A stretch of 34,795 nt of DNA from IMG/VR virus record IMGVR_UViG_3300004770_000054, positions 1 to 34,795 of that record; one strand, 5' to 3'. A program made the position numbers and the translations under genes. The notes below the pieces were generated by a model. It was not told the origin of the DNA. It did no database searches and worked only from the letters and a program-made list of their open reading frames with translations. Source of the stretch: a virus. Positions 1,254-34,697 of this stretch are shown here, in pieces. Position 1 is the stretch's first letter, and every line of letters begins with the position of its first letter.

Positions 1254-1604
1254 ATGTTAAACAGAGATCTATGCCCTAATTGCGGTAATAACCCGGTTGC
1301 CGTGAACTATATACGCGATGGTGTTCATCATTATCGTAATAGTTGTGCTGCTTGTATTAGGAAAGGTCGTAAACGTCGCCCGGAGCCACCGGCATGGGTT
1401 AAGAGTGGTTACAAGAAAAAACCCGCTTGTGAAAAGTGCGGGTTTAAGTTTAAGCTCATGGAGCAAAGTAATGTATTTTATGTTGATGGTAATTTAAAAA
1501 ATCACAATTCGTTTAACTTAAAAACTGTATGCTTAAATTGTCAACAAGAAATTTATAAATCCAAGTCGCCGTGGAAGCCGGCTCCTATAATACCAGATTT
1601 TTGA
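1254..1604 (+). CDS. Small zinc-ribbon protein with degenerate HNH-like motif
   Basis: A 116-residue basic protein with four CxxC pairs (C7/C10, C31/C34, C59/C62, C93/C96), so probably two zinc sites. Residues 75-96 (FYVDGNLKNHNSFNLKTVC followed by LNC) have the layout of an HNH nuclease core, DGN then N..NL..LC..C. The usual His before DGN is Phe-Tyr here, so nuclease activity is doubtful. Similar small proteins sit near the sheath/terminase genes of T4-like cyanophages as far as I recall; their function is unknown. It is the only + strand gene in its neighbourhood, and its 3' end overlaps the 3' end of the convergent dNMP kinase gene by 20 bases. A weak -10-like TAAAAT lies at 1200-1205 without a good -35. 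No clear Shine-Dalgarno precedes the ATG. Confidence 0.65.
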   Translation: MLNRDLCPNCGNNPVAVNYIRDGVHHYRNSCAACIRKGRKRRPEPPAWVKSGYKKKPACEKCGFKFKLMEQSNVFYVDGNLKNHNSFNLKTVCLNCQQEIYKSKSPWKPAPIIPDF

Positions 1605-2208
1605 TGTTTGTATATAGCTCTTCAATAGTACCATTATTGTCTATTTCGTAATCAAACTTAGTACCTACCCAAGCTGTTTCACTAATATGCACTCCAAGTC
1701 CTTGAAGGATTTCACTTGATGCGTTCGGCTGTGGTGGGTTATTATTTGCGGCTAATGCTACACCATACCAGCTAGGCAATTCGCCACGCTTAACCCAGAC
1801 AATTTTGCCGCCAGCGTTGCGGATACTTTGTATTTCGTTGGGGAAACGTACATCGCTAATAACAGTATTGTCACTACGACGGCTTAATCGTGCTTCCAAT
1901 GCAGCAATCCAGATATCGTCATGGAATGCTCGGCGGCATACTTCTGTGCCCCAATATTGTAACACCCAACGTGGGGTAAGATTAGGCATATTAAGTCTAT
2001 TAGCCCACCAAGAGTCTACTTGTTCTCGCCAAGCACGGGCTTCAGGAGTACGACCTTCTAGTAGTTCGCGGTCCCAACCAAACACAGCTGCCACCGCATC
2101 TTTAAGTGTACCAGCAAAACTGTCTCGACGATAGCCGTGGAATCCAACTAAGTAGTCAGCAATAGTATCTTTACCCGAACCAATAAACCCGCATACCCCA
2201 ATGATCAT
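1585..2208 (-). CDS. 1: Deoxynucleoside monophosphate kinase, T4 gp1-like
   Basis: Phosphorylates deoxynucleoside monophosphates to diphosphates for phage DNA synthesis in the cytoplasm. The 207-residue protein opens with a P-loop, GFIGSGKDT at residues 7-15 (lysine 13 binds phosphate), followed by FAGTLKDAV (31-39), the FA..LK segment seen in phage dNMP kinases. It also has DVRFPNEI at 119-126, a conserved family signature. T4 gp1 is 241 residues, so this is slightly short but appears complete. The ATG at 2206-2208 directly abuts the T-run of an intrinsic terminator, and its best Shine-Dalgarno (GAGG) lies inside that hairpin's 3' side. A sigma70-like promoter starts just beyond the hairpin's 5' arm. 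It lies between virion genes but is probably expressed early. Its 3' end overlaps the + strand zinc-ribbon gene. Confidence 0.9.
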   Translation of the reverse strand: MIIGVCGFIGSGKDTIADYLVGFHGYRRDSFAGTLKDAVAAVFGWDRELLEGRTPEARAWREQVDSWWANRLNMPNLTPRWVLQYWGTEVCRRAFHDDIWIAALEARLSRRSDNTVISDVRFPNEIQSIRNAGGKIVWVKRGELPSWYGVALAANNNPPQPNASSEILQGLGVHISETAWVGTKFDYEIDNNGTIEELYTNIKNLVL

Positions 2209-2264: not shown

Positions 2265-2681
2265 TTATTTTTTAACTGTAGCAATGACAATGCGGGTAAT
2301 TGCGCCAGGGTTTCGGGCAGGGCTCACTCGATTTACATCCTTGACTTCAGTCGATCCACGCGGAGTTAATTGTGTTCCAGAAACTCCAAACGCTTTTTCT
2401 GCCTGTGCAATAATAGCTTCATCTGCGTCGCTATAGGCTACTGTAACTAATGCTTGTCCGTTTGGGCCCTCTTTAGCAGGTTCGTGTTCGTACTTGCCGT
2501 CTGGCGCGCCAGCACCACCTAGAAAGTGTGCGGCAAAGCGCCAAGGTGCATAAGGACTAGAGTTATCTAAATTATGATGACTTTTCATCCCAGGCGTAGC
2601 TGTTTGATGGCTATCCGGAATTCCGTCGTTGTTTGCATCAATATCCGACTTAGCTTCAGTAATAATTTCTGTAATTTTCAT
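2265..2681 (-). CDS. Putative capsid-targeted internal head protein, paralogue B
   Basis: A 138-residue protein of unrecognised function. It starts MKITEIITE followed by AKSD. This resembles the short N-terminal capsid-targeting sequences of T4 internal head proteins, which the gp21 protease removes after (L/I)-x-E; here the site would be I-T-E|A after residue 9. The rest contains PYAPWRFAAHFLGGAGAPDG, then AYSDADEAIIAQAEKAFG and a tail with GSTEVKDVNRVSP. It aligns along its length with the upstream gene (2678-3046): AY..(x)I.A.A...G, then S.E.K..N..SP and G.I. The two are therefore tandem duplicates. Its ATG overlaps the previous stop (ATGA), indicating translational coupling. It is the last gene of the gp13 operon, before the terminator at 2209-2234. 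The gene is secure; the targeting role is inference. Confidence 0.75.
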   Translation of the reverse strand: MKITEIITEAKSDIDANNDGIPDSHQTATPGMKSHHNLDNSSPYAPWRFAAHFLGGAGAPDGKYEHEPAKEGPNGQALVTVAYSDADEAIIAQAEKAFGVSGTQLTPRGSTEVKDVNRVSPARNPGAITRIVIATVKK

Positions 2682-3046
2682 AATTTTCTTTGTATAGGTC
2701 CGCGAGCTTTTACTGGACTAGTACTATTTATTGACTTGGGCTCGTGACTGTCGCTGTCACTAATTTCTTCCATTGTGTGTCCCATTTCTGCGGCCATTGC
2801 GCGAATCATTTCTAGTTCTTTAGGATGATAGGCCATCATAAACATGTTGTTTGCTAATGGACTTTCTTTGGACTTCATAGTACTATCACCACTTTGTCCA
2901 GCGATGTTAACACCTGCACGGTACATGTGGTAGTACTGATTAGTAATATCAGGAAACTTTACACCGCGAGTAAATGCCGATCGGTGATCGTCGTGTATGT
3001 CGCCATACTTTTTTAATTCTTCTGTGATAATTTCTGTAATTTTCAT
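2678..3046 (-). CDS. Putative capsid-targeted internal head protein, paralogue A
   Basis: A 122-residue protein. The start is the ATG at 3044-3046, which overlaps the gp13 stop (TAATG). A TTG further upstream would lie inside gp13 and is rejected. It begins MKITEIITE, identical to the next gene over nine residues and over the first 20 bases, then ELKKYGD. The pattern fits a T4-type capsid-targeting peptide with an (L/I)-x-E cleavage site. The body holds NQYYHMYRAGVNIAGQSGD, a hydrophobic/Met-rich helix NNMFMMAYHPKELEMIRAM, and an acidic SDSDSHEPK before NSTSPVK. It aligns with the 2265-2681 product. Coupling to gp13 implies late expression, as expected for a head or neck component. Function is unknown; an unrelated co-expressed virion accessory protein is the alternative. 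Confidence 0.75.
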   Translation of the reverse strand: MKITEIITEELKKYGDIHDDHRSAFTRGVKFPDITNQYYHMYRAGVNIAGQSGDSTMKSKESPLANNMFMMAYHPKELEMIRAMAAEMGHTMEEISDSDSHEPKSINSTSPVKARGPIQRKL

Positions 3047-4002
3047 TAGCCAGTTACCCAAGTTAACGGAACAGAACCATCAATATAATCTTTTAATTCC
3101 TGTTCCAATTTGGCCATTTCATCATTGGCTTCAGCTTTAAGTGCTGCACCGTTTAAGGTTGCACCACCCTGTGGGCCAGCAATTTGACTGAACTTTTCAC
3201 GAGCTTCACCAAGGATGCGTTTACAGAAGCTGTATGCGTATTCTTGTATCCAGGGAAATGCGTAAGTATCGTTGAATATCATTTGGTCAGGTTTGGTATT
3301 GTAAATCCATAACAACACTGACTCTTGTTGCTCTAGTGGAGGGTTTGCCCCCTGGAACGGCATTTTACGAACAATAGTAAGTTTCTTAGTTACAGGGTTA
3401 AATGTGTAATTCATGTAACCACCAAACATCTTCATTGCTAACTTTTGATAGTCGACAAACAATTCGTAGTTGGTTAAACCGCCAACACGACCTGCTACTA
3501 ACATATAAGTGTTTAAATAACCCGAGCTGAATGGCTCAAATTGACTGGCTGTTGTTCCTGTTACGCTACCAATACCGCGACGAAAAATAGCACGAACGTT
3601 TTGAATTTCTCTTGGTAATATATATTCTTGTGTTTCTGGTAGTAGCTGTAGGCTTGCATAGCTTTCTTCTACGCTGTTTTGTCCGCGCTGACGATATTTA
3701 ATCAGGGCCTGATTAATACCCATTTCGTAGTGTTCTTTGTCTAGCTCTACGTCAACAATACCATCACCTAAGCGCATACGTATATAATCAATAATACTTG
3801 TTCGCATGGAATCTGTAGTATTGCCATACTCCCAATTTGGATCTTGTACGCCAGGGAATGTTACTGTATCGCTACCATCGAAGGCAATGTGTGCAGCAGA
3901 TTGTGTACCTGTGGCGGGATTAAACAGGTTACGAGTAGTGATGTTATTTAGACTATCGTATCCGGTATCTGCAACTACGTTACCGTTAAAGGGTGTGGAC
4001 AT
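3046..4002 (-). CDS. 13: Neck protein, T4 gp13-like
   Basis: Head-completion/neck protein; with gp14 it closes the DNA-filled head so that the tail can join. It has 318 residues, against about 309 in T4. Two regions line up with T4 gp13 as I know it. The first is a helical stretch near residues 69-105 (IIDYIRMRLGDGIVDVELD, then AL..Y). The second is the C terminus, with GPQGGATLNGAALKAEANDE followed by LEQEL and an ending P.TWVTG, matching the GG.TI.G..L..EA..E pattern and terminal VG of gp13. A late promoter at 4024-4030 and a leader with CGGAG precede the ATG. It heads an operon with the two MKITEIITE genes. Its partners gp14 and gp15 are on the opposite strand nearly 3 kb away. Confidence 0.8.
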   Translation of the reverse strand: MSTPFNGNVVADTGYDSLNNITTRNLFNPATGTQSAAHIAFDGSDTVTFPGVQDPNWEYGNTTDSMRTSIIDYIRMRLGDGIVDVELDKEHYEMGINQALIKYRQRGQNSVEESYASLQLLPETQEYILPREIQNVRAIFRRGIGSVTGTTASQFEPFSSGYLNTYMLVAGRVGGLTNYELFVDYQKLAMKMFGGYMNYTFNPVTKKLTIVRKMPFQGANPPLEQQESVLLWIYNTKPDQMIFNDTYAFPWIQEYAYSFCKRILGEAREKFSQIAGPQGGATLNGAALKAEANDEMAKLEQELKDYIDGSVPLTWVTG

Positions 4003-8280: not shown

Positions 8281-9684
8281 ATGGCTAATGTTGTTCAATT
8301 TAACTATGACGGACAAATGCGCCGATTCATTTTGCAATTTATTCGCATGGTGTCAAACTTCCAAGTTGAGTTTGGCAAGGACACCAATGGCAATCGCACA
8401 CTACAAACAGTTCCAGTCTATTATGGAGATCCTAGTCGTCAGGCCAGTACCATACTTAAAAATAACAGCGAAAATACACTATCGGCAGTCCCGGCAATGA
8501 GTGCTTATATCTCAACACTACGGTATGATCGTGATCGCTTACAAAATCCATATCACGAAAGTGATGTTAGAATTAGAGAACAAGTTTACGATCAAACAAC
8601 ACAACAATATCTAGGTACACAAGATGGCCAATATACTGTAAAACGCTTTATGCCAGCACCGTATACAATTGGTATGAAGTTAGATATATGGACCAGTAAT
8701 ACTGATCAAAAGCATCAGCTAATAGAACAATTAGTTCCGCTATTTAATCCTGGCTTTGAAATTCAAAGTACAGATAATTTTGTAGACTGGACTAGTTTAA
8801 GTGTAGCATTACTAACTAGTGTAAACTATACTAGTCGTAGTGTGCCAATGATGGGCGACGATACTAGCATCGATATTGCTACACTAGAGTTTGAAATTCC
8901 AATTTGGTTGACGTTACCTGCCAAGGTACAAAAAGGCGGAGTTGTACAACAAATTATTGCAAACATTTATGATGATAGTGGTAGCATCAATGGCGATATT
9001 ATTGATATCGCAGCTACTAGCCAGATTCGATACACACCGCTTGATTACTCTATTGTTTACTCTAGCAATCCAACTAGTTCTACAGGAACACTAACACTAT
9101 ATTCCAAAATAGCCACAGACGGATCAGGTACCACTACACCGTGGGCAAACTTGGTAAATTTATACGGTACATTAACCAATGGTATTAGTCAGGTGCGTTT
9201 AACATTTGATTATCCCGATGGGCCACACGAAATAGTTGGTGTTGTTGCTTATAGCCCAAACGATCCAACTACATTATTGTTTACCCCCGACTCTGCAACA
9301 TTGCCGGCAAATACATTAAACTCAGTAACAGCTATCATTGATCCGTACAACGTCAATGTTACCAATGTTAATAACAGCGGTTCTAGTTTATTAAGTCCAG
9401 CAACAGGTACTAGATATTTAATTTTAAATCCAATTGGTGCTGTAGGCAATCAAACAGGAGTTGCCTGGGCCGGTCCATCAGGAACAAATTTAATTGCCAA
9501 TGCTAACGACATCATTCAGTGGAATGGTAGTTACTGGACTGTGGCATTTGATAGTACAAGCACAAATCAAATTGAATATACTACAAATTTAACTACCGGA
9601 ATACAATACAGCTGGGATGGATCCATTTGGGCCAAAGCAGCCGATGGAGTTTACTTTGGTGGGTCTTGGAGTTTGGTACTATAA
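8281..9684 (+). CDS. 15: Tail completion / sheath stabiliser protein, T4 gp15-like
   Basis: Caps the head-proximal end of the finished tail and provides the surface that binds the neck. The product has 467 residues; T4 gp15 has 272. Residues 1-215 follow the T4 gp15 plan: RRFILQFIRMVSNFQVEFG near the N terminus, VPVYYGDPSRQ at 44-54, the signature MPAPYTIGMKLDIWTSNTDQ at 124-143 (T4: NPSPIKMIYELSIFTRYEDD), QLVPLFNPGFE at 150-160, and FEIPIWL at 204-210. Residues from about 230 are a marine-type extension of beta-rich modules, ending in a QWNGSYW...YSWDGSIW repeat and SWSLVL. It starts six bases after the gp14 stop and ends with TAATG overlapping the Nudix gene. Confidence 0.8.
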   Translation: MANVVQFNYDGQMRRFILQFIRMVSNFQVEFGKDTNGNRTLQTVPVYYGDPSRQASTILKNNSENTLSAVPAMSAYISTLRYDRDRLQNPYHESDVRIREQVYDQTTQQYLGTQDGQYTVKRFMPAPYTIGMKLDIWTSNTDQKHQLIEQLVPLFNPGFEIQSTDNFVDWTSLSVALLTSVNYTSRSVPMMGDDTSIDIATLEFEIPIWLTLPAKVQKGGVVQQIIANIYDDSGSINGDIIDIAATSQIRYTPLDYSIVYSSNPTSSTGTLTLYSKIATDGSGTTTPWANLVNLYGTLTNGISQVRLTFDYPDGPHEIVGVVAYSPNDPTTLLFTPDSATLPANTLNSVTAIIDPYNVNVTNVNNSGSSLLSPATGTRYLILNPIGAVGNQTGVAWAGPSGTNLIANANDIIQWNGSYWTVAFDSTSTNQIEYTTNLTTGIQYSWDGSIWAKAADGVYFGGSWSLVL

Positions 9685-10112
9685 TGAGTGAGCATCTAGA
9701 AGGTTGCGGAGCATTAGTCTATGCTCGATCAACTAATCGATATCTATTTTTATTAAGAAACAAAAGTAGACATGCTGGGGCCTGGGGTATCGTTGGTGGA
9801 AAAATTGAGTCGGGCGAAACTGTTATACAAGGACTAGTTAGAGAAATACGAGAAGAAATTGGAGTAGACTATACTAAGAAAAAGTTTATTCCCTTAGAAA
9901 CATTTACCGCAGATAATCGCAAATTTGTTTACTATACATTTTTAGTCGATTGCGGAGAAGAGTTTGTACCAACATTAAATGACGAGCACCGCGGATATTG
10001 TTGGGTAGAATTAAATGATCATCCAAAGCCATTACATCCAGGACTATGGCGTAGTTTTAATTTTGATATAGTTAAAAAGAAAATTAAAACTTTAGAATCT
10101 ATATTAAATTAA
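9684..10112 (+). CDS. Nudix hydrolase
   Basis: Hydrolyses a nucleoside diphosphate linked to another group; the actual substrate (dNTP, ADP-ribose, dinucleotide or RNA cap) cannot be told from sequence. The 142-residue protein carries a perfect Nudix box at residues 39-61: G39, E45, then REIREEIGV (53-61), so every position of GX5EX7REUXEEXGU is satisfied. The start is the ATG at 9684, which overlaps the gp15 stop (TAATG); a TTG at 9627 would lie inside gp15. It is the last gene of the + strand late operon, an unusual place for a nucleotide-metabolism enzyme. Its TAA stop lies in the palindrome TTAA, which also supplies the stop of the convergent gene. Confidence 0.93.
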   Translation: MSEHLEGCGALVYARSTNRYLFLLRNKSRHAGAWGIVGGKIESGETVIQGLVREIREEIGVDYTKKKFIPLETFTADNRKFVYYTFLVDCGEEFVPTLNDEHRGYCWVELNDHPKPLHPGLWRSFNFDIVKKKIKTLESILN

Positions 10113-32310: not shown

Positions 32311-32361
32311 TTCCCATCCCTGGGAGTTTTAACTTTCGTTAAATCAAGTTCAGTCTTGATT
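32311..32361 (-). promoter_or_regulatory. Structured 3' UTR of the major capsid mRNA
   Basis: Between the capsid stop and the terminator lie three further inverted repeats: AATCAAG/CTTGATT (32342-32361, overlapping the stop codon), TTTAAC/GTTAAA around GAAA (32328-32343) and TCCCA/TGGGA (32311-32326). The first two share two bases and cannot both form fully. Confidence 0.55.
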
Positions 32362-33553
32362 ATTGGAAAGATAAGTTAGCTACAGCGATTTCACCAACAT
32401 AGTCACCAGCGTTACCTAGAGATGATGCTGTGTTTGTTAACTCAACATATCCATAACGTGTCATAAAACTTACTACTGGTTCAAATGTAGATGGATCTAG
32501 AACAACACCAGAGCTCATCAATGGGATATATGGGCAATAGAACGCAGCTGCATCAGCTTCGCTAGAACCCTTATAACCAACTAAAACAGCTTGGCTGTCG
32601 TTTGCATAACCGTCAACATAAATCTTCATTGCGCCGTTCAATGTACCAACAAACTTAGTGTTTGTAGGAGCTTCAAATGTACCTTCTGTTGTACGAGCGA
32701 ATGCAGAAGTTGTAGCACTTTGTAGTACTGTTAAAGCAGCTGGGGAAACAACAGCCCAGTTACCAGCACCACGACGTGTACGTTGAGCGATCAAGTTAGC
32801 TGTACGATTGATTAGAACAGCTAAAGCAGCGTGTTCGTCACCAACGAATGTAGCTGTACCAGATACAGCAGACTGATCAAATGTGTAATCAGTTGCAGCC
32901 AAGGCACGTAAAGAACCTAGGATCTCTTGGTCAATTTCAACTGTGATTTCTTGTGCTAAAGCAGCCATGATTTCAGCTTCAACATCCAAACCGTGCATAG
33001 ATTGTGCATCTTGCGCAGCTTCAAATGTCCAACGAGCTGATAACTTACGTGTTTTAGCTTCTACTACTTGTTTCAAGATTTGAACGTTGATACGGCTACC
33101 AGCAACACCTTCAAGTGTACTTGTAGAAGTAGCTTGACCTGTTGTAGCTGTACCGCCTGGAGCTACTGAAGAGTAAGCTACAGCGATCTTGAATGGGCTC
33201 AATGCCTCGTCACCAGCAGCTGCAGATGTAGCGTAGGCGCTAGAATCTGTTACGTTGTCAGCATAGCGAACACGTAATGTGTGGATTTGAGCAACTGGAC
33301 CAGTCATTGGCTGAACACCAACGATTTCGTTAGCGATAACTGTTGGCATTACACGACGGATAACTGGTAGAATTACACGGTTTAGTGTAGCTACGTTACC
33401 TGCTTGTGTAGAACCAGCTGTTGCGCTTTCAGCCAACATCTTGCGAGTGTTCTCAAGGATTACACCCATTGTTGTACGACGTGAACCGTTAAGTCCTTCT
33501 AACAGGGCTTCTTTGGTTTCGCCCCAACGGCTTTCTAATAATGCTTGTGTCAT
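32360..33553 (-). CDS. 23: Major capsid protein, T4 gp23-like
   Basis: Main shell protein of the head (HK97 fold), assembled around the scaffold into proheads and trimmed by the gp21-type protease. It has 397 residues, shorter than T4 gp23 (521) as in marine relatives. Residues about 58-90 carry the family core: LNRVILPVIRRVMPTVIANE then IVGVQPMTGPVAQIHTLRVR (T4: RRAIPNLIAFDICGVQPM.SPTGQVFALR). A cleavage site of the (L/I)-x-E type, KMLAE|SATAG, lies after residue 42; this would be a shorter propeptide than the 65 residues of T4. Also typical are RKLSARWTFEAAQDAQSMHG, AQEITVEIDQEIL, NWAVVSPAAL and YKGSSEADAAAFYCPYIP. AAAAGGAAA precedes the ATG, and the leader has only degenerate late-promoter sequences (TTAAATAA, CTAAATA at about 33566-33580). 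Confidence 0.97.
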   Translation of the reverse strand: MTQALLESRWGETKEALLEGLNGSRRTTMGVILENTRKMLAESATAGSTQAGNVATLNRVILPVIRRVMPTVIANEIVGVQPMTGPVAQIHTLRVRYADNVTDSSAYATSAAAGDEALSPFKIAVAYSSVAPGGTATTGQATSTSTLEGVAGSRINVQILKQVVEAKTRKLSARWTFEAAQDAQSMHGLDVEAEIMAALAQEITVEIDQEILGSLRALAATDYTFDQSAVSGTATFVGDEHAALAVLINRTANLIAQRTRRGAGNWAVVSPAALTVLQSATTSAFARTTEGTFEAPTNTKFVGTLNGAMKIYVDGYANDSQAVLVGYKGSSEADAAAFYCPYIPLMSSGVVLDPSTFEPVVSFMTRYGYVELTNTASSLGNAGDYVGEIAVANLSFQ

Positions 33554-33578: not shown

Positions 33579-34697
33579 TTATTTAAGCCCTGCTAAACGT
33601 TTCATTTCAAATACGTTAGACATTACATCTAATTTATCTGAAGATTCAACGGCAGTTTTAGCAGTTTTATCACCAGTTACTACTTGACGACTCTCTGCTA
33701 ACATAACTGATTTCTCAGCTACCGGTTTAACAGCAGAGTTGTTTAGTACAGCTGGTAGATACTTTTCGTATGCACTCTGAAGTTTATCAGTTTGCACACT
33801 TTCAAGAAGGTCACGCATAATTGCTGACTTTTCTTTGTTTAAAGGCTTCAACATGTCTGCAAGACGTTCCTTGCGCTCTGCTGATTCCTTGATAATACGA
33901 ACTTCACGTTCTTTTGATTCAACTAAAACATTTTTCTCTTCAATTTTCTGAACTGCTTCAGACAACTTCTGAGACAAGGACTCTACAGTACCTTGTAACT
34001 TAGCTACTTCTTTGTTCTCATTTAAATGAGTAACAGCGAATTCACTAGCAAATGCTTCAAATAGACGACGACCAAACATGTTCTCGCGAGCAATTTGGAT
34101 GTCTTCTTTTAGTTGAGTCAATTCTGACTCTAACGAAGTAGTTACGGCCTCTTTAACAGCAGCGGCAGATTGAGCTACGAATTTTTGTTGAAGTTCAGCT
34201 AATTTAGCTTTACCTTCTGCAACTAAACGAACCTTAGTTTCCACTACGGCACGCTTGTCTTGCTCGAACTCTTGGATTTCTTCTGCTAATGCGCGGATTG
34301 TAAATGCTTCTAGCTTGCTAATAGCTTGCTCGTAAACTTTACGATCGGCACGAAGTTCTTTAATTTCTTCTGCTAATTTAGCTGTCATGAAATTATTAAA
34401 CTTGCCTGCGCTTTCAACCATTGTGCGTTTAAATGCAACACGGTCTTCTGCTAATTGTTTCTTTTCGTCTGCAAACTCTTGTAGTTCAGCAGTGAGAGAC
34501 TCGGTAACCATTTTGTCTAGAGCTTCAACCATAACTTGCTTGTCATGCTGGTAACGTTGTGCGAATTCTTCACGTAGTTCTGCACGTACTTGTTCTTTGG
34601 CTTCGGTAATACGAGCTTCCCAAGCTTCAGAAATTGCTTCACGTGTGTCTTCGTTAATAATTCCGTTATCCAACAATGGTTTGATAGCATCTAACAT
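33579..34697 (-). CDS. 22: Prohead core scaffold protein, T4 gp22-like
   Basis: Main internal scaffold around which the capsid protein assembles, later cut to small peptides and lost from the head. The 372-residue protein is almost wholly alpha-helical and highly charged (Glu/Lys/Ala/Leu), with continuous coiled-coil character at 20-205 and 235-290. The conserved gp22 motif is clear: ARENMFGRRLFEAFASEFAV (203-222) followed by THLNEN. Many (L/I)-x-E tripeptides (LAE repeated several times) supply protease sites. The C terminus is KLDVMSNVFEMKRLAGLK. The gene precedes the capsid gene with 25 bases between, the same order as in T4, and AGGAG stands before the ATG. Confidence 0.95.
   Translation of the reverse strand: MLDAIKPLLDNGIINEDTREAISEAWEARITEAKEQVRAELREEFAQRYQHDKQVMVEALDKMVTESLTAELQEFADEKKQLAEDRVAFKRTMVESAGKFNNFMTAKLAEEIKELRADRKVYEQAISKLEAFTIRALAEEIQEFEQDKRAVVETKVRLVAEGKAKLAELQQKFVAQSAAAVKEAVTTSLESELTQLKEDIQIARENMFGRRLFEAFASEFAVTHLNENKEVAKLQGTVESLSQKLSEAVQKIEEKNVLVESKEREVRIIKESAERKERLADMLKPLNKEKSAIMRDLLESVQTDKLQSAYEKYLPAVLNNSAVKPVAEKSVMLAESRQVVTGDKTAKTAVESSDKLDVMSNVFEMKRLAGLK

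Follow-up and report, generated by a model that had tools for sequence, protein, structure and literature searches.

T4 packages and injects Alt, an ADP-ribosyltransferase with a short N-terminal propeptide. Among the T4 internal proteins, IPII and IPIII start with MKTYQEFIAE|A, and IPI has STITE|A. The prohead protease gp21 cuts after L/I-X-E, and in IPIII residues 4 and 7 are involved in targeting and residues 8 and 10 in processing (PMC9026906). One E. coli strain cannot be infected without IPIII, and IPI inhibits a restriction enzyme (PMC9391042). The internal proteins of T-even phages are diverse defense proteins in which the capsid-targeting sequence (CTS) is the only common part (PMC3012670). 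One suggestion is that T4-like phages may be able to package a variety of proteins by means of the CTS (PMC9026906), and the principle of CTS packaging is therefore already known. A literature search for capsid targeting in phages of marine or metagenomic origin found nothing specific.

Here we describe two tandem genes, A and B, of an uncultivated giant T4-type phage. We propose, with a probability of about 0.78, that their shared start MKITEIITE is a cleavable T4-type capsid-targeting leader on cargo proteins of one family (the A/B family), which would be packaged and most likely ejected into the host. The window analyzed is a whole IMG/VR record of 34,795 nucleotides, a fragment of a T4-superfamily phage genome. 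Its major capsid protein gp23 (32360..33553, minus strand; PF07068, E 1e-98) is nearest, among cultured giant phages, to those of Vibrio phage 2.275.O (70 percent) and Sinorhizobium phage Phosso (68 percent), and compares at 67 percent with Pseudomonas phages such as PA5oct.

Genes A and B and Their Neighborhood

The sequence-only reading had described two adjacent genes with the same start, translationally coupled to gp13, and this arrangement was confirmed. Gene B (3046-2678, minus strand) lies directly behind the gene for a gp13-like neck protein, a head-tail adaptor (3046..4002, minus strand; phrog_211, E 7e-31), whose stop codon is overlapped by the B start codon (GGCTAATGAAA). Likewise, the ATG of gene A (2681-2265, minus strand) overlaps the stop codon of B (AATTATGAAA). 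The first 20 bases of the two genes are identical (ATGAAAATTACAGAAATTAT), and both proteins begin with the nine residues MKITEIITE, encoded at 2655..2681 in A and at 3020..3046 in B. Coupled tandem copies are common in this family, because the loci collected contain 28 four-base and 21 one-base overlaps between neighboring members. The A protein has 138 amino acids, with a predicted mature form of 129 amino acids (13.5 kDa), and B has 122, with a predicted mature form of 113 amino acids (12.8 kDa). Both are near neutral (pI 6.2 for A and 7.3 for B), unlike many basic leader proteins, and neither contains internal cleavage sites of the usual type. With A and B left out of the family HMM, the B body, a diverged paralogue of the A body, still scored 86 bits, compared with 8.5 for the best of 2000 shuffles, and the homology of the bodies thus holds without the leader.

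Searches of A and B against Pfam and PHROGs returned nothing of note, with one Pfam match to A falling below its cut-off, and the same was true of 92 family members compared with PHROGs. A tblastn search with seven members against the INPHARED phages gave one weak match at E = 2 and otherwise none; nothing in Pfam, in PHROGs or among 50,697 phage records matched the body family. The predicted structure of A (pLDDT 83, pTM 0.50) had no match in the PDB; among viral structures it matched one uncharacterised phage protein (E 8e-4). The predicted structure of B (pLDDT 82.5, pTM 0.64) gave weak matches only (best Z 3.3), several of them to small ferredoxin-like domains, with scores too low to claim such a fold.

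The gene after A encodes a deoxynucleoside monophosphate kinase of the T4 gene 1 type (1585..2208, minus strand; phrog_139, E 2e-53; PF21448). In T4, ipI is found three genes away from gene 1, which encodes the same kinase (AF158101, 73591-75374), and the likeness to the arrangement at 1585-2681 of the window may be coincidence. Elsewhere in the window, a long series of tail-fiber-like ORFs of up to 1469 amino acids with common modules such as NSGTASSSTTTGALVVAGGAGISG occupies 10852-31684 on the minus strand, and an ORF at 9627-10112 on the plus strand has, by eye only, a NUDIX-like motif (GGKIESGETVIQGLVREIREEIG). The gene before gp23 is by its position a probable gp22 scaffold (33579..34697, minus strand; phrog_10922, function unknown there), and its product contains 15 hydrophobic-x-E sites followed by a small residue, ITE|A among them.

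The Leader as a Portable Tag

A DNA pattern for MKI[TNK]EIITE gave at least 119 matches in IMG/VR; bacterial and archaeal genomes, 257 billion bases in all, gave only 4, all of them unrelated. Among the matches listed from IMG/VR, about half of the ORFs behind this pattern belong to the A/B family and the rest are unrelated. In total, 398 distinct leader ORFs were collected among the listed IMG/VR matches, comprising 220 of the A/B family and 178 that fall into 58 other body clusters; among the latter bodies are DUF6321, NUDIX and GNAT domains as well as one ADP-ribosyltransferase (PF03496). With a broader leader pattern, the first ATG matched in 12 of 856 ORFs of seven related genomes, as against 2 of 4155 internal methionines (P = 4e-8). 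A second leader, MRAxEFIxE, likewise precedes both A/B-family and unrelated bodies. The pI exceeds 8 for 58 percent of the mature leader proteins of the family and for 72 percent of the others, compared with 20 percent of the long ORFs of the related record G001.

The variation of bodies behind a constant leader, which the sequence-only reading had offered as a check, is therefore observed on a large scale. The leader stands before unrelated bodies, and the family body occurs behind other leaders or in fusions with the same type of site; both findings exclude a leader conserved only as part of one folded domain. The view of the leader as a fixed tag was upheld, whereas that of A and B as two different payloads was not, since they are diverged copies of one family. 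The tag and its portability are established at the level of sequence. If the 20 bases shared by A and B reflected a feature of the DNA or RNA, for example a translation-start element spread by recombination, the peptide would have no function. We regard this as scarcely credible, since across the 398 leader ORFs the codons vary while the residues hold (GAA or GAG at positions 5 and 9, ATT, ATC or ATA at position 7), data that already contradict it, and since the second leader keeps the same pattern with a different sequence.

Four leader-tagged genes lie close together on the minus strand of one related locus (L162:6653-9449), one of them NUDIX and one weakly ADP-ribosyltransferase-like; this group is possibly a cargo cassette.

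The Slot Behind gp13

In 44 of 49 gp13 contexts, the start of a leader ORF is no more than 60 bases from the gp13 stop codon, with A/B-family bodies in 30 and other bodies in 14; these loci were mostly fetched by leader or family and describe the contents of the slot rather than its frequency. The slot, the copy number and the body all vary between phages. The presence of leader genes directly behind gp13 in many genomes would also be expected if the leader were an uncleaved docking peptide for the neck or portal vertex and A and B were neck accessory proteins. We consider this very improbable, because leader genes occur in many other places, with seven scattered over the genome of G001, and because the leader ends in a protease-type boundary that matches the capsid maturation site.

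A Protease-Type Boundary at Residue 9

Residues 1-9 of the leader are conserved among 138 representatives, with E5 and E9 each present in 97 percent. Entropy stays low through residue 9, apart from positions 4 and 8, which are free, and rises abruptly at residue 10. The earlier proposal that both proteins fit a gp21-type site holds fully for A, where the cut is predicted after residue 9 (ITE|A). In B the predicted ITE|E also fits, except that the residue after the site (P1') is unusual, being E in 8 of the 138 representatives. The corresponding site that had been noted in the capsid protein, LAE|S, is present at residues 40-42, with predicted maturation after residue 42. In a small leader protein of a relative, the junction MKITEIITE|TATAGSTSAGNIASV matches the LAE|SATAGSTQAGNVATL of the capsid protein. 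The same capsid-like junction is found behind MKAIEILSE in a 65-residue protein of Phosso and in a 498-residue protein of PA5oct that is annotated ESI-MS/MS.

To avoid bias toward the leader, family members were also searched by the body alone, which gave 80 family ORFs, 53 of them with the canonical leader. When the 23 complete non-canonical ORFs were listed by hand, [ILVMF]xE preceded the body in 22 of them, compared with 10 on average and 17 at most in 2000 shuffles. Some of these sites are in the interior of a longer protein; the others come 8 to 26 residues after the start. Similarly, by inspection, all 31 distinct contexts of DUF6321-type domains, whether N-terminal or internal, have hydrophobic-x-E ahead of the domain start. 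A gp21-type prohead protease was found in 9 of 15 related records, and the window itself ends before the expected place of gp21. The protease-type boundary and the occurrence of gp21 in related genomes, like the tag, are read from sequence, and the earlier interpretation of the leader is on that footing well supported.

Two further groups of proteins were observed at such junctions. Small proteins in five related loci (L188, L195, L205, L338 and L346) and in Phosso (331487-331684) have, after the leader or site, a start similar to that of the mature capsid protein (SASAGATSSGSVASV), and they form a family of their own. In L216:11949-12950, and also in L230, L073 and L411, A/B-family bodies are fused behind other proteins and joined at VAE|A or LYE|A; one fusion partner resembles a nucleotidyltransferase by eye (GRWNPPHRGH). 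The sequences of these fusions suggest that they may be precursors cut apart in the head.

Cultured Relatives and Virion Data

Leader genes of PA5oct lie at 82921-83142 and 157529-157843, and those of Phosso at 331487-331684 (MKAIEILSE|S) and 339080-339478 (MRLSEIINE|S). In PA5oct, two proteins with the strict leader carry ESI-MS/MS notes in GenBank, the nearest that the evidence comes to a direct observation. The enrichment of the leader among MS-noted proteins was not significant (2 of 93 versus 1 of 352, P = 0.11), and with a looser pattern P was 0.03 over all genes and 0.13 within the late region. In Vibrio phage 2.275.O, the nearest cultured phage by capsid protein, no convincing leader gene was found; its single match to the leader pattern was not counted, since it starts 249 codons inside an open frame. 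A search for DUF6321 in three cultured relatives gave no match, and the positive control also gave none.

A protein in the gp67 position of PA5oct, behind the portal gene (MK797984.1, 82921-83142), has the leader MKINDIITE|G and is annotated ESI-MS/MS; its relatives in the records G005 and G003 start with MNILDLFE or MNITDLFE instead. This leader protein favors an explanation in which A and B are parts of the assembly core or scaffold like T4 gp67 and gp68, which would contribute to the shape of the head and then be degraded or kept as structure, with no role in the host. The same explanation would suit the location of A and B among head and neck genes, and gp67 and gp68 are likewise cut by gp21 (PMC5694885). 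We judge it unlikely, because A and B, unlike scaffold proteins, are without the usual internal cleavage sites, because slot, copy number and body differ between phages, and because enzymes bear the same tag.

Proposed Role of the Leader

Under the capsid-targeting interpretation, the leader would recruit the protein to the prohead core, and a gp21-type protease would then cut after E9. The freed body would stay beside the DNA inside the head and would most likely accompany it into the host. The phage group would thus place the same short tag on many unrelated proteins, and A and B would be tandem cargo copies behind gp13. Several observations speak against this interpretation: the glutamate after the site in B, the near-neutral pI of A and B, the non-significant enrichment of the leader among MS-noted PA5oct proteins, the end of the window before the expected place of gp21 and the result for Vibrio phage 2.275.O. 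We infer that A and B are packaged, cleaved and ejected and that their bodies act in the cell; for ejection into the host, the analogy with T4 makes this reasonable.

More tentatively, and with somewhat less than an even chance, the leader may belong to a general protein-delivery system of an uncultivated group of giant T4-type phages. Dozens of interchangeable effectors would be loaded by the nine-residue tag, some of them as fused precursors cut in the head. The A/B family would then represent an undescribed class of injected effectors, perhaps directed against host defense. If the proposal is correct, proteins delivered to the host can be recognized by one short motif at the gene start, and injected effectors could be listed from sequence in uncultivated giant phages. 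The capsid-targeting principle, worked out mainly in T4, would extend to a large phage group, and short tags would become available for loading proteins into large capsids.

Comparison with Known Systems

Like T4 IPI, IPII and IPIII, the proteins described here have a leader of about ten residues with an MK start, a glutamate and two hydrophobic residues, and (I/L)-x-E followed by a small residue. The processing residues 8 and 10 of IPIII (PMC9026906) correspond to I7 and E9 of MKITEIITE. In both systems a constant leader is joined to differing bodies, and the proteins are short and encoded near head or neck genes. Comparison with T4 IPI, IPII and IPIII gave no body homology (hhalign probabilities of 0.2, 9 and 2 percent, respectively); in the profile comparison with the family, IPIII aligns over the leader only and IPII weakly from the leader on. 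Unlike in T4, the leader is one residue shorter with its own consensus, the cargo is far more varied, fused precursors carry internal sites, and a slot behind gp13 holds cargo genes.

One leader ORF, at L357:6643-7242 in a related phage, is a member of PF03496, the Pfam family that also contains T4 Alt. Alt differs in that it starts with another leader, MELITELFDE, and A and B are not of its enzyme family. In the giant phages SPN3US and phiKZ, the prohead protease also cuts after a glutamate behind a short motif, and the SPN3US paralogues gp53 and gp54 share identical N-terminal 15 residues with the rest diverged (PMC5694885). The propeptides in those phages are mostly over 100 residues long (PMC5694885), whereas the leader here has 9, as in T4. 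What is new beyond the known CTS principle is its scale and form in another phage group.
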